Origin: Vibrio kanaloae
GTDB taxonomy: Bacteria > Pseudomonadota > Gammaproteobacteria > Enterobacterales > Vibrionaceae
Reading direction: 5' to 3'
Assembly: GCF_024347535.1 (NCBI RefSeq)
Contig: NZ_AP025497.1
Span: 1,302,001 to 1,366,000 of the forward strand
Length of the DNA stretch: 64,000 nt
Of this stretch, positions 23,769 through 28,316 are shown piece after piece (within the stretch, counting starts at the first letter, position 1; every line of letters begins with the position of its first letter). The notes beneath the pieces are model-generated. The model had not been told where the DNA came from, did no database searches, and was given only the letters and a program-made list of their open reading frames with translations. Both the position numbers and the translations under genes were made by a program.

Positions 23769-24028
23769 TGTAATGTTTCGTTCGGATAAAAAGAGATACC
23801 ATTGCGTCTCTCTTTGGTTCTTATTATAAATGATTATTGTTTTACGCAGTTTGGTGGTTGAATTTTGTTCAAACAGCTGTTTTGTTCAATTTAATAGCAA
23901 AAAGTGTGGTTATAGCGTTGTGTTTCGAGGCTTATTCGATAAGATAAAAAGGTCTCTAATGCTAGAGGAAGGGCAGCAACGGATACGCTGTTTCAATTGC
24001 TATGGAATGTGATTTACTGGACACATAC

Positions 24029-24226
24029 ATGAAATTTAAGATTACCTCACCGATTATTGAACCGACGGAAGGTTCGCCACATCAGTTAACGAAAATTTAT
24101 GCATCTCGTTTTCCCTTTTTTAAGACAAGCTCCCCTTTGAACGCCCTGTTCGACAACGTTTCTGCACGCTTCTTTACTGCTTATCGCTCCTATTGTTATT
24201 CGTTTTATAACTTTATTTCTATCTGA
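24029..24226 (+). CDS. Aromatic-rich leader ORF upstream of TyrP-like permease (65 codons)
   Basis: The open frame from ATG at 24029 encodes 65 residues and ends 69 bases before the permease. Residues 48-62 contain eight aromatics: two Phe, then Tyr, Tyr, Tyr, Phe, Tyr, Phe, in the context RFFTAYRSYCYSFYNF. An earlier cluster reads RFPFF. Such clusters of regulatory codons are typical of leader peptides that sense tyrosine or phenylalanine supply. A weak GGA lies seven bases before the ATG. A longer start at 24002 has no ribosome site. No hairpin terminator follows, so a Rho-dependent (tnaC-like) or arrest mechanism is inferred. It could instead be a chance frame. Confidence 0.5.
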   Translation: MKFKITSPIIEPTEGSPHQLTKIYASRFPFFKTSSPLNALFDNVSARFFTAYRSYCYSFYNFISI

Positions 24227-24295
24227 ATTCCTTTGTCATCCACTTGATGCACGAAGACTCACACCTATAAAAACTAAACAAATAAGTTAAAAATA

Positions 24296-25450
24296 ATGAA
24301 TATTAAAATGATGGGTAGCTCCCTAATTATCGCTGGTACCGCTCTCGGTGCTGGTATGCTTGCGATCCCAATGGTATTAGCTCAATTTGGATTGCTGTAC
24401 GGTACATTGCTGATGGTACTAATTTGCTTCGGTACCACCTATGCAGCGTTACTACTTCTAGAAGCGACCATCAAAGCGGGTGGCGGTCTAGGATTAAACT
24501 CAATTGCAAGAAAAACACTGGGCAAGCAGGGCCAGCTGATCACCAATGGTTTGCTTTATGCGTTACTGATTTGCCTATTAATGGCCTACATCCTAGGCGC
24601 TGGTGATCTACTGAGTAAGGTACTGTCTAACTTTGGCTTAGAAATAACAGCAACGAATGGTCAGATCGGTTTCACAGTGATCGCTGGTGCGATTGTGGCA
24701 AGTGGTACAGGAGTGGTCGATAAGCTCAATCGTTTGTTGTTTTTCGTGATGCTAGGCAGTTTGGTAACAACCATGGTGTTTTTGGCTCCGGGAATGACGG
24801 TGTCTAACTTGTCGCAAGTGACAAGTCATGATCATCTTGACCTAATCAAAACCAGTGCAATTCTGTTTACCAGTTTTGGTTTTATGGTAGTGATCCCGAC
24901 CTTGGTTTCTTACAACCACGAAGCGACAGACACACAGTTAAGAAATATGGTGATTGCAGGTTCCCTTATTCCACTAGTGTGCTACCTATGCTGGTTATTC
25001 GCTGTCGTGGGCAATTTGAATGAAGAGCAATTCAGAAGCTTTAAGAATGTCTCAGACTTGATGGCAGCGTTTGAGGCTCAGTCTCCTTGGGTGGGTAACG
25101 TTCTGTCTACCTTCACTGGCTTGGCGTTGTTGACCTCTTTCTTTGGTGTAGCTATGTCTTTATTCAACCAGAATAAGGACATGTTCAACCAAAATACCGC
25201 GGTAACGTACTGCATTAGTTTCATCTTACCTTTGGCGGGTTCTCTGCTTGCTGCTGACAAATTCTTACAAGTACTGAATTACGCCGGCATCATCTTAGTG
25301 TTCTTAGCCGTGTTCGTTCCGTTGATGATGGTTCACAAGCAGCGCTTTATGAAAGTAGCGGAAGACAGATACAGCGCAGAAGGTGGCCGACTAATGATGC
25401 TTTTCTCATTGCTATTTGGTTGCTTCTTGCTTATTTCACAAGTGATTTAG
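24296..25450 (+). CDS. tyrP: Aromatic amino acid permease, TyrP/Mtr family
   Basis: This 384-residue inner-membrane carrier of the hydroxy/aromatic amino acid permease family has about eleven hydrophobic helices. The N-terminal signature GSSLIIAGTALGAGMLAIP and the middle segment FTSFGFMVVIPTLVSYN match TyrP-type proteins. Tyrosine is the likeliest substrate, but tryptophan or phenylalanine cannot be excluded. It has no clear ribosome site before ATG 24296, which fits control by the upstream leader ORF. A bidirectional terminator follows. Confidence 0.8.
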   Translation: MNIKMMGSSLIIAGTALGAGMLAIPMVLAQFGLLYGTLLMVLICFGTTYAALLLLEATIKAGGGLGLNSIARKTLGKQGQLITNGLLYALLICLLMAYILGAGDLLSKVLSNFGLEITATNGQIGFTVIAGAIVASGTGVVDKLNRLLFFVMLGSLVTTMVFLAPGMTVSNLSQVTSHDHLDLIKTSAILFTSFGFMVVIPTLVSYNHEATDTQLRNMVIAGSLIPLVCYLCWLFAVVGNLNEEQFRSFKNVSDLMAAFEAQSPWVGNVLSTFTGLALLTSFFGVAMSLFNQNKDMFNQNTAVTYCISFILPLAGSLLAADKFLQVLNYAGIILVFLAVFVPLMMVHKQRFMKVAEDRYSAEGGRLMMLFSLLFGCFLLISQVI

Positions 25451-25581: not shown

Positions 25582-26943
25582 TTAACAAACTACCTTAACT
25601 GCCAAACCACCTTGAGAAGTCTCACGGTATTTAGCGTTCATGTCTTTACCGGTTTCTAGCATTGTTTCGATAACTTTATCGAGAGAAACAGTCGGAGCAG
25701 AAGAGCGACGAAGTGCCATACGAGTTGAGTTGATTGCTTTAACTGCAGCAATACCGTTACGCTCGATACATGGTACTTGTACTTGGCCAGCAACTGGGTC
25801 ACATGTTAGACCTAGGTTGTGCTCCATACCGATTTCTGCCGCCATACATACTTGCTCTGGGCTACCACCCATAAGTTCAGCAAGGCCTGCAGCAGCCATA
25901 GAACATGCCACACCAACTTCACCCTGACAGCCAACTTCAGCGCCAGAGATAGAAGCGTTACGCTTGTATAGACCTCCGATCGCGCCAGAAGCTGCGAAGT
26001 AACGGATGTAGTCTTTTTCTGTCACTGTTTGGATGAACTTATCATAGTAAGCCAATACCGCTGGGATGATGCCACATGCGCCGTTTGTTGGTGCCGTTAC
26101 TACACGGCCGCCAGCTGCGTTTTCTTCGTTTACAGCAATCGCAAACATATTTACCCAATCAACAACTGTCATTGGGTCGTTAGTTGTTTTTTCTGAAGTA
26201 ATTAGCTGTTGGCGAAGTGCTGAAGCGCGGCGAGGTACGCGTAATGGACCAGGCAGGATACCTTCGGTATTCATACCGCGATCCATACATTCACGCATCG
26301 TTTTCCAGATGTTCGAGAAGTAAATGCGAGACTCCTCGTCTGAGTGGAAAGCCGCTTGGTTTTTCATAACCAGTGTACTAATAGAAAGGCCACTTTCTTT
26401 ACATTGATTAACCAGCTCTTCAGCTGTTGTGAATTCGTAAGGTGCTTTGATTGGGTTTGCTTCTTCTTTGCCGAAATTCTCTTCGTCAACGATGAAACCG
26501 CCACCAATTGAGTAGTATGTTTTTGAGTATGCTACTTCGTCATCAACCCAAGCATGAATGCTCATGCCATTTTCATGCAATGAAAGGTTCGAAGTATGAA
26601 AATTCATTCCGCCATCTTTAGGGAACGAAACAGTATGACAGTGCATACCAACAGGTAGACGTTCAGTTTCTTCTACGCGAGCCATAAAACCTGCGATGGA
26701 ATCAATATCTACTTTCTCAGGAGTATTGCCAGCAAGACCCATGATGATAGCGATATCTGTGTGGTGACCTTTCCCTGTCAGTGATAGTGATCCATATACG
26801 TCCACGGTGATTTTAGTGATGTCGCGCAACTTTCCCATTGAACGTAGGTCATCAATAAACTCTTTACCCGCTTTCATTGGTCCTACTGTATGTGAGCTCG
26901 ATGGACCAACACCGATTTTAAAGATATCAAATACACTAATCAT
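25582..26943 (-). CDS. sdaA: L-serine ammonia-lyase SdaA
   Basis: SdaA deaminates L-serine to pyruvate and ammonia with a [4Fe-4S] cluster. The start MISVFDIFKIG at 26943 has GAGG eight bases upstream and gives 453 residues, the usual length. The N-terminal GVGPSSSHTVGPM motif, APTNGACGIIPAV, and the cysteines in the C-terminal half (for example GLTCDPVAG) fit the single-chain bacterial type. It is downstream of the serine carrier sdaC. Confidence 0.95.
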   Translation of the reverse strand: MISVFDIFKIGVGPSSSHTVGPMKAGKEFIDDLRSMGKLRDITKITVDVYGSLSLTGKGHHTDIAIIMGLAGNTPEKVDIDSIAGFMARVEETERLPVGMHCHTVSFPKDGGMNFHTSNLSLHENGMSIHAWVDDEVAYSKTYYSIGGGFIVDEENFGKEEANPIKAPYEFTTAEELVNQCKESGLSISTLVMKNQAAFHSDEESRIYFSNIWKTMRECMDRGMNTEGILPGPLRVPRRASALRQQLITSEKTTNDPMTVVDWVNMFAIAVNEENAAGGRVVTAPTNGACGIIPAVLAYYDKFIQTVTEKDYIRYFAASGAIGGLYKRNASISGAEVGCQGEVGVACSMAAAGLAELMGGSPEQVCMAAEIGMEHNLGLTCDPVAGQVQVPCIERNGIAAVKAINSTRMALRRSSAPTVSLDKVIETMLETGKDMNAKYRETSQGGLAVKVVC

Positions 26944-26954
26944 AGCGATTACCT

Positions 26955-26990
26955 CAAAAAGAGAGCCTCCCAAGTGGAGTAGGGAGGCTC
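26955..26990 (-). terminator. Intercistronic hairpin with T tract between sdaC and sdaA
   Basis: Arms GAGCCTCCC (26963-26971) and GGGAGGCTC (26982-26990). On the minus strand the stem is followed by TCTTTTTG, and the sdaA ribosome site GAGG starts right after it. This looks like a partial terminator that sets the sdaC:sdaA ratio. Confidence 0.7.
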
Positions 26991-27062
26991 ATTTATTATC
27001 ATTATATTTGTGTTTAATCTCGAGACATAAGATGAATACCATCTTATAAAAAATGCTTAAGA

Positions 27063-28316
27063 TTAAAGAGCGCCGTAGATTACAGAACTAATAGCCGCTA
27101 GACCACATAAAGCTGTAAACATTTGTACAGGTGTTGAAGTTTTGTACTTAGCCATTGCTGGTACTTTTTGCATCGCGAATACTGGCATTAGGAACAGGAT
27201 AGCTGCAATCATTGGAGCACCCATTGTTTCAATCATACCTAGGATACTTGGGTTAACGACTGCAACAATCCAAGTTGTAACAACGATGAACGCTAAAGAT
27301 ACTTTTTCAATCTTGCTTACTGAAGAGTCAGAGCGAGACTTGATTAGACCAACAAGACCTTCGTGAGCACCTAAGAAGTGACCGAAGTAGCTTGAAGTAA
27401 TCGCTGCGAACGCGACTAGAGGACCCATGTAAGAGATAAGTGGAGACTCGTGAATGTTAGCTAGGTAAGAAAGTACAGAGATGTTCTGTGCTTGTGCTGT
27501 TGCTAGTTGCTCTGGAGATAGAGAAAGCACGACAGAGAATACAAAGAACATTACAAAGCCCATCAGCATCATTGCTGCGCCGCCGGTGATAGCGTCAGTT
27601 TTCTTAACTGCGTTTTCACCGTATACACGACGTTGCTCTTTAGAGAACTGTGAAATGATTGGACTGTGGTTGAAAGAGAACACGATGATTGGAATTGCAA
27701 GCCAGATGATAGAAGGCATTGTTGACCACTCAGGTTCAACGTCCATCATAGAAGTGTTCCATTCAGGAACTAGGTAAAAAGAAAGAGCTAATAGGATGAA
27801 TACTAGCGGATAAACCATTGCTGAAGTTGCCTTTAGCATCAGCTCTTTACCGAATACAACACCTGCTGTCATAGCAAGGATAAGTGCACCAGAAAGAAGA
27901 GGACGAGGAATAGATTCCATGCCGATTTGGTTTACTAAAAAAGAATCAACAGTGTTTGTGATACCAACACCGTAGATAAGAACGATCGGGTAGATAGCGA
28001 AGAAGTAAGCGAAAGTGATAATGTTTGCGCCAGTCTTACCGAAGTGTTCTTCAACTGTGTCTGTAATATCGGCTTCAGGGTTTTTAGCTGACAGTACGAA
28101 ACGAGCTAGAGATTTGTGTGCGAACCAAGTCATTGGTGCCGCGATTAGAGCTAGGATAACTAGTGGCCAAAAACCACCCGCACCAGCTTTGATTGGAAGG
28201 AACAGTACGCCAGCACCAACTGCTGTACCAAATAGTGATAAACACCAGGTAAAATCTTTATAGTTAAACTTGCTTGAATTTTTAACGGCACTTACCGAAG
28301 AAGTTGTTGTGTTCAT
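27063..28316 (-). CDS. sdaC: Serine transporter, SdaC-like (HAAAP family)
   Basis: This 417-residue inner-membrane proton/serine symporter has about eleven membrane helices. The early motif LFGTAVGAGVLFLPIKAG and the segment SFNHSPIISQFSKEQRR are typical of SdaC/TdcC proteins. It precedes sdaA on the same strand, giving a serine uptake and breakdown operon like E. coli sdaCB. The 318 bp upstream (28317-28634) hold its promoter; I see no further gene there. Confidence 0.92.
   Translation of the reverse strand: MNTTTSSVSAVKNSSKFNYKDFTWCLSLFGTAVGAGVLFLPIKAGAGGFWPLVILALIAAPMTWFAHKSLARFVLSAKNPEADITDTVEEHFGKTGANIITFAYFFAIYPIVLIYGVGITNTVDSFLVNQIGMESIPRPLLSGALILAMTAGVVFGKELMLKATSAMVYPLVFILLALSFYLVPEWNTSMMDVEPEWSTMPSIIWLAIPIIVFSFNHSPIISQFSKEQRRVYGENAVKKTDAITGGAAMMLMGFVMFFVFSVVLSLSPEQLATAQAQNISVLSYLANIHESPLISYMGPLVAFAAITSSYFGHFLGAHEGLVGLIKSRSDSSVSKIEKVSLAFIVVTTWIVAVVNPSILGMIETMGAPMIAAILFLMPVFAMQKVPAMAKYKTSTPVQMFTALCGLAAISSVIYGAL

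Follow-up and report, generated by a model that had tools for sequence, protein, structure and literature searches.

In the tna operon of Escherichia coli, the leader peptide TnaC is encoded by a short ORF in front of genes that include one for an aromatic-amino-acid transporter. As described in PMC10941005, it ends in UGA, read by RF2, its conserved residues are W12, D16, I19 and P24, and C-rich RNA suited to Rho, with rut next to the stop codon, belongs to the arrangement. The Vibrio leader analysed here is alike in its short ORF before an aromatic-amino-acid-type transporter gene, in its UGA and in its C-rich RNA. It differs from TnaC, as that account presents it, in having a conserved N-terminal module, rut-like RNA inside the ORF and a CsrA-like 5′ UTR, and no sequence relation was seen: in an alignment of 28 leaders neither Trp nor Asp is conserved and the last codon does not encode Pro, and the Trp/Asp/Ile/Pro set is not conserved. 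Because the TnaC residues are absent and the rut-like RNA is part of the ORF, we rejected TnaC membership.

Three further systems invite comparison. In SpeFL, which senses ornithine, a ribosome stalled on the leader peptide affects Rho access; its stall lies beside the stop codon according to PMC7815308 and PMC10941005, whereas the most conserved module of the Vibrio leader lies far upstream of the stop, at a variable distance. The E. coli uORF mdtU (34 codons, stop 106 nt before mdtJ) also joins a transporter to Rho-dependent control, but as reported in PMC7815308 MdtU is conserved most at its C-terminus and the Vibrio leader at its N-terminus. CsrA sites consist of GGA, in many cases within a hairpin loop, and evgL and iraD are cases of CsrA control through leader peptides, with GGA motifs before and over the leader-peptide SD, as in Vibrio; in the description of PMC11210196 the stop of evgL and the start of evgA overlap, whereas the Vibrio leader and its permease are 57-130 nt apart and the peptide is under selection.

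The DNA analysed, here called the window, is a stretch of 64 kb, positions 1302001-1366000 of contig 1 in a two-contig Vibrio kanaloae genome of 4.65 Mb; coordinates are those of the window, and features lie on its + strand unless stated otherwise. TnaC has 24 codons, compared with 39-65 in the Vibrio leader. In classic attenuators such as pheL and trpL, the run of regulatory codons lies near the end of the leader peptide, as it does in Vibrio; unlike these, no terminator was found with the Vibrio leader, and its conserved N-terminal peptide lacks the regulatory residue. Full-text searches returned nothing for EPTEGSPH, the motif described below, nor for leader peptide combined with tyrP, Vibrio and attenuation, and no description of a leader of this Vibrio/Aliivibrio permease was found in the literature searched by title and abstract start, a scope outside which most subscription papers fall.

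The leader frame and its N-terminal module

The leader is a frame of 65 codons (24029..24226) with its ATG at 24029 and a UGA at 24224-24226, 69 nt before the permease ATG at 24296; a 65-codon frame 69 bases before a TyrP-like permease was the core of the earlier note on this DNA, and these dimensions stand. The window also contains an in-frame ATG at 24002. Since several relatives (L024-L026, L034 and L052) have an in-frame stop immediately 5′ of the ATG matching 24029, we take 24029 as the conserved start. The permease (24296..25450) is a Trp_Tyr_perm protein (Pfam E 1.5e-73) that scores 234 bits against TIGR00837 (curated cut-off 350) and 207 bits against NCBIfam TyrP (curated cut-off 482). 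Because it falls under both cut-offs, "TyrP-like" is correct and "TyrP" unproven, and we treat it as a putative aromatic-amino-acid-type permease with a candidate substrate assignment. As the note had also observed, it has no clear SD, and by eye its SD is poor in the leader-bearing Vibrio relatives read as well. Where relatives whose permease is more than 90% identical are named, they are Splendidus-group Vibrio. A sequence search at E 0.001 found no related solved structure, and a search of the plasmid collection found no near match that would speak for mobile origin. Downstream, in convergent orientation (25582-28316, − strand), are genes whose translations suggest an L-serine dehydratase and another permease from the same superfamily.

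The leader follows one branch of this permease family. The family is present in 138 of 148 genomes of the genus, and upstream DNA was taken from 53 genomes with a permease at least 66% identical, from 16 at 57-62% and from 21 more distant copies. All 53 of the first group have the leader, and in the other 37 stretches the leader motif was not found within 700 nt. The earlier note had named loss of the reading frame in relatives beforehand as grounds for giving up its proposal; the frame is conserved, and it is kept across many length changes. Written as a DNA pattern with the Ser codon relaxed to WSN, EPTEGSPH matches 101 of 329 Vibrionaceae genomes, with one place each among the matches listed, and its reversed control matches none of the 329. 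The positive genomes fall in three of the 13 Vibrionaceae genera and include all 14 genomes of one genus, which its leaders suggest is Aliivibrio. With Ser restricted to TCN, the pattern found 67 stretches in a GTDB-based collection, 61 from Vibrio, Aliivibrio or 'Vibrionales' and six from unrelated organisms; these six, outside Vibrionaceae, have no permease match downstream and are read as chance. The permease lies downstream of the motif in 89 of the 91 Vibrionaceae stretches inspected (30 of the 101 places and the 61 of the GTDB-based collection, some genomes being present twice), and the other two are cut off. A protein search with the motif gave 27 proteins, of which the named ones are each a 'hypothetical protein', from Vibrio where the organism is given.

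Clustering at 90% reduced 141 loci to 45 representatives, of which the permease search supplied 29 and the motif search 16; L130 and L168, cut inside the leader, were dropped before the counts. Loci found by EPTEGSPH carry it by construction, as do 16 of the 45 representatives, and only the 53 permease-found loci test it (52 in part of the analyses, since L036 has the leader but was missed by the start pattern). Over the representatives the leader is 39-65 codons long and ends 57-130 nt before the permease. The shortest, with 39 codons, occurs in L107 and L176 (Aliivibrio sp. MAG NORP241), reads MKTIATGPILEPTEGSPH...LLSYRY and may be a minimal form.

Conservation is concentrated in codons 1-18 (24029..24082), the N-terminal module, which ends in EPTEGSPH and is the most conserved part of the leader. 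The motif is identical in 53 of 53 permease-found loci, scored with a looser pattern, and its codons vary: third positions carry 1.0-2.0 bits except that of E14 (0.15 bits, nearly always GAA), so that the change within the motif is synonymous. The residues before it are conserved too, mostly as F-K-I-T-x-P-I-I and in Aliivibrio mostly as F-Q-L-T-S-G-P-L-L. Conservation ends abruptly after H18, with 3.4 bits at the next residue over the 45 representatives, and the module sits 21-47 residues before the stop, a distance that is variable. As a yardstick, 48% of the first 110 columns of the permease are invariant in 44 sequences, with a longest run of 14; since the permease core is conserved too, the leader motif is as conserved as the permease and not more so. 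The sharp end of conservation at residue 18 fits a nascent chain that would act on its own ribosome, close to the peptidyl-transferase centre, and whether the first 18 residues would bring about an arrest or pause is, in our judgement, an evenly balanced question. The earlier note does not report the motif, the 5′ UTR hairpin with its GGA, or how far relatives share the leader. That the frame is a cis-acting regulatory leader peptide for the aromatic-amino-acid-type permease we regard as almost certain from its pattern of conservation.

The linker, the spacer and the Tyr/Phe tail

Between the N-terminal module and the stop lies a linker that varies in both sequence and length among the 45 representatives and that, together with the tail (24083..24223), is G-poor and YC-rich. 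Over the representatives it has a C/G ratio of 2.38 and 12% G, with 17.6 YC per 100 nt compared with 8.8 in the spacer that follows the stop. The window's own linker has 67% pyrimidine and 12% G, its G content is below that of all 1476 windows of the long ORFs in the 64-kb stretch, and by C minus G it ranks in the top 0.7% of them. In the window, linker and spacer together fold no better than shuffles (z −0.42). The composition of the linker agrees with the account of rut sites as C-rich, G-poor, YC-rich and unstructured in PMC7815308 and PMC12121999. Rho sites also carry little information, as stated in PMC12121999, so the composition argument is weak, and the linker is suggestive only of rut-like RNA and a candidate Rho entry site. 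By the same measure no rut is seen in the spacer beside the stop, its place in TnaC.

The spacer had been described in the earlier note as pyrimidine-rich and unstructured, and neither part held: in the window it has 48% pyrimidine and 43.5% A, the pyrimidine-rich, G-poor part being the leader's own linker, and it contains a 10-bp hairpin (hairpin 4, 24231..24256; z −3.3). This hairpin is clear in the Splendidus group, has no U tract and is not a terminator. Because the signal is weak over the 45 representatives (mean z −0.65; best hairpin 11.6 compared with 10.0 in shuffles), we keep it out of our claim. The absence of a visible terminator, by contrast, was borne out: none was found on the + strand of the window in the interval from leader to permease, by eye the best spacer hairpin of the relatives has no U tract either, and control by an intrinsic terminator or antiterminator was rejected since none was found before the permease. 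Rfam gave nothing over the gathering score in the window stretch or in eight leader-bearing loci; among the sub-threshold matches, those to Leu_leader (E 0.0025) and Phe_leader (E 0.19) in L147, both scoring far under the gathering cut-offs, lie about 4 kb from the leader. The tnaC-type switch of the earlier note thus survives in half: its preference for Rho or arrest over classic attenuation fits the missing terminator, the rut-like linker and the UGA, whereas the likeness to tnaC fails on the TnaC residues and on the place of the C-rich RNA, which is in the ORF and not in the spacer. We lean, by a little, towards a Rho-dependent outcome.

The E. coli tyrP gene belongs to the TyrR regulon, and the TyrR box has the consensus TGTAAA-N6-TTTACA. 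Against this consensus, the best match 5′ of the leader in the 44 representatives with sufficient sequence has 3-5 mismatches, as in shuffles, and TyrR control of the leader-bearing permease was rejected for want of a box.

The leader ends in a Tyr/Phe-rich C-terminal module with the UGA stop (24179..24226). Each of the 45 representatives has at least one Tyr among its last ten codons. The tail statistics, from representatives that are related and thus not independent cases, are a mean of 2.16 Tyr per last ten codons compared with 0.66 in codon-position shuffles (largest shuffle mean 0.89), 2.33 Phe compared with 1.11 (largest 1.44), and 4.5 Phe plus Tyr in frame compared with 2.6 and 1.5 in the shifted frames. 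The dense Phe/Tyr end that had been remarked on earlier is thereby confirmed over the 45 representatives, and with these Tyr and Phe means the leader has the run of codons for a regulating amino acid that marks an attenuator. UAU accounts for 94 of the 97 Tyr codons in the tails, compared with 41% of those in the long ORFs of the window. UGA ends 38 of 45 leaders (UAA six, UAG one), compared with four of the window's 38 long ORFs. The expectation that amino acids would be conserved and codons would vary is thus borne out by the N-terminal motif and fails for the Tyr run, which is almost always UAU. Aromatic residues occupy positions −1 (37/45), −3 (37/45) and −5 (29/45), and Arg position −6 (27/45). 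We infer that the UAU-rich tail before UGA may be a sensor of tyrosine supply. As a separate observation, the UAU bias of the terminal Tyr codons (24179-24223 and relatives) could be linked to queuosine-modified tRNA-Tyr.

Most leaders of the Splendidus group, including that of the window, run six codons (24206-24226) beyond the stop of near relatives (L008 type), an extension that shifts the Tyr/Phe run away from the stop. This bears on two readings of the tail. The tail could do the whole work by sensing charged tRNA, in the manner of an attenuator in which Rho replaces the intrinsic terminator: the ribosome would slow over the UAU/UUU-rich end when Tyr- or Phe-tRNA is low, and the N-terminal motif would only set timing or initiation. 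The presence of Tyr in every tail, the strong preference for UAU, an aromatic order and register that are not fixed, and a Splendidus-group extension that retains Tyr and Phe codons would all agree with this, but the conserved EPTEGSPH, which has no Tyr, is left unexplained and the alternative terminator hairpin is absent, and we consider it unlikely that charged-tRNA sensing is sufficient. An arrest of the TnaC/SpeFL type, in which free Tyr (or Phe) in the tunnel would block release at UGA and mask the spacer from Rho, draws on the preference for UGA and on the aromatic and Arg positions just given, and TnaC itself, in the description of PMC10941005, uses UGA/RF2 with rut next to the stop. 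However, the C-terminal register varies, a variable 21-47 residues separate the most conserved module from the stop, and the C-rich stretch precedes the stop rather than following it. Because the Tyr/Phe end of the Splendidus group has six more codons, arrest exactly at the stop is not universal, and we hold this second reading to be improbable.

The 5′ UTR and candidate CsrA sites

By eye, a candidate promoter (23918..23945) consists of TTGTGT (−35, 23918-23923) and TAAGAT (−10, 23940-23945) separated by 16 nt; many relatives have a TTGCAA-like element and TAAGAT or TAATAT at the matching place, in a TTGCAA-N16/17-TAAGAT layout. The promoter of the window is absent from the matches listed by a consensus promoter scan. 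For the region between promoter and leader, 140 upstream regions were clustered at 90% into 42, of which 41 were used; L107 was left out, since it looks unrelated there, with an SD only and no GGA hairpin. Close to where the RNA probably begins, the fold places hairpin 1 (23953..23968, TCTCTA/TAGAGG), for which the best stems average 6.26 in the 41 relatives compared with 4.37 (sd 1.05) in base shuffles. Hairpin 2 (23971..23993) presents a GGA (23981-23983) in its loop, a candidate CsrA site, and is the element with covariation: its stem scores 6.05, compared with 3.96 (sd 0.21, maximum 4.72 of 1000) after arms were swapped between species, and all five RNAalifold pairs have changed on both sides, each being broken or gapped in 2-4 of the 41.

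Two more GGA follow. The second (24004..24006; ATGGAATGT in the window, AAAGGATTGTCT in many relatives) occurs in all 41 representatives, between −31 and −23, with no covarying stem in them (2.57 compared with 2.59 with swapped arms). The third belongs to the leader SD (24019-24021 in the window), stands at −12 to −8 in 40 of 41 representatives and likewise has no covarying stem among the 41 (2.1 compared with 2.38). This GGA is a third candidate CsrA site, and in the window fold it would be in the loop of a possible hairpin 3 (24007..24026, ATGTG/CACAT), a hairpin seen in a single fold and absent from the covariation. The window's whole 5′ UTR folds no better than shuffles (z −0.31). The three places, at about −50, −28/−25 and −10, thus hold GGA in 37, 41 and 40 of the 41 representatives (four lack the GGA of hairpin 2 and one that of the SD); GGA occurs 3.34 times per 72 nt compared with 1.63 in dinucleotide shuffles (largest 1.98), twice the expected number; and, with L107 excluded, the layout of a GGA in a hairpin loop and a GGA over the SD is found at these same counts. 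The genome of the window has csrA, with one match over the cut-off. Because of the GGA layout, the covariation of hairpin 2, the evgL/iraD precedent and the presence of csrA, binding of CsrA is likely, and we think it probable, with the sites as candidates, that CsrA acts on translation of the leader.

The same layout could be taken to mean that CsrA and translational coupling are everything, in the manner of evgL and iraD: the permease would need ribosomes from the leader, or their reinitiation, and the sequence of the peptide would matter little. A poor permease SD in Vibrio and the precedent described in PMC11210196 would favour this, but leader stop and permease start do not overlap, being 57-130 nt apart, and the conserved N-terminal residues stay unexplained; coupling as the sole mechanism seems to us quite improbable. 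Still less credible is a small trans-acting protein (for example one acting on the permease) encoded just upstream by chance, since 18 residues strongly conserved at the amino-acid level would suit it but the remainder is conserved neither in sequence nor in length (39-65 aa), the permease follows wherever an inspected stretch is not cut off, and each matching genome listed in the 329-genome search has one copy.

Ribosome position as a candidate switch, and the sister clade

The reading we prefer is that the permease is controlled by the position of the ribosome on the leader and that Rho probably executes this control, a proposition to which we give as much belief as doubt. In our model, CsrA bound to the GGA of hairpin 2 and to the GGA of the leader SD would set how often the leader is translated, and the place of the ribosome on the leader would decide whether Rho can reach the nascent RNA. 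The rut-like linker would be protected as long as ribosomes sit on it or between it and RNA polymerase. The 18-residue N-terminal module would act as a nascent-chain pause or arrest that ends at H18 (codon 17/18); a ribosome held at codon 18, before rut, would leave the linker exposed, let Rho in and turn the permease off. The tail would sense tyrosine supply, as charged tRNA or as the free amino acid, and slow decoding of UAU after rut would place a ribosome where it blocks Rho, with the permease on. That CsrA, Rho, N-terminal arrest and tyrosine tail all operate together as written is a tentative proposal that we would not expect to hold in full, and a switch with two stops round rut, in which two ribosome positions have opposite outcomes and CsrA sets the frequency of starting, is in that exact form unlikely.

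A tree was built from permease N-termini, with fragments of at least 114 residues and without one representative that was too short. It groups the 44 leader-bearing sequences in a single clade (support 0.85), to which a clade of the 16 leaderless ones (0.965) is sister. The 5′ region conserved in the leaderless clade is a different one, and its permease has a proper SD. About 300 nt 5′ of the leaderless permease, which starts with GTG, 15 of its 16 loci (L055-L070) have TTTGCTTCGAACCCAA and L067 has CTTGCTTCGAACCCAA, an element that by eye sits inside an apparent ATTTTG/CAAAAT stem. In this 5′ UTR, RNAalifold pairs TGCTTC with the permease SD through six invariant pairs, without covariation and at −1.4 kcal/mol. 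Rfam gave no match over threshold in eight leaderless loci, and the core of the 5′ UTR occurs in eight of 99 genomes of the genus, once each and always with the leaderless permease; it is possibly a further regulatory RNA of a new kind. Among 12 distant permease copies examined (about 48% identical, of the 21 fetched), five (L071, L072, L075, L079 and L081) carry TGGAAA/TGGCAA-N6-TTTACA at −56 to −59, a TyrR-box-like site with 1-2 mismatches; among 160 shuffles from other loci, none had one TyrR mismatch or fewer and 11 had two.

If our reading is true, EPTEGSPH would be an apparently new nascent-chain motif for the short list of regulatory arrest peptides. The sister clades of one permease, with two unrelated 5′ control regions, would provide a natural comparison of how control is replaced. 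In this marine family, which has laboratory species among its members, a single leader would also link a local amino-acid signal to the global regulator CsrA.
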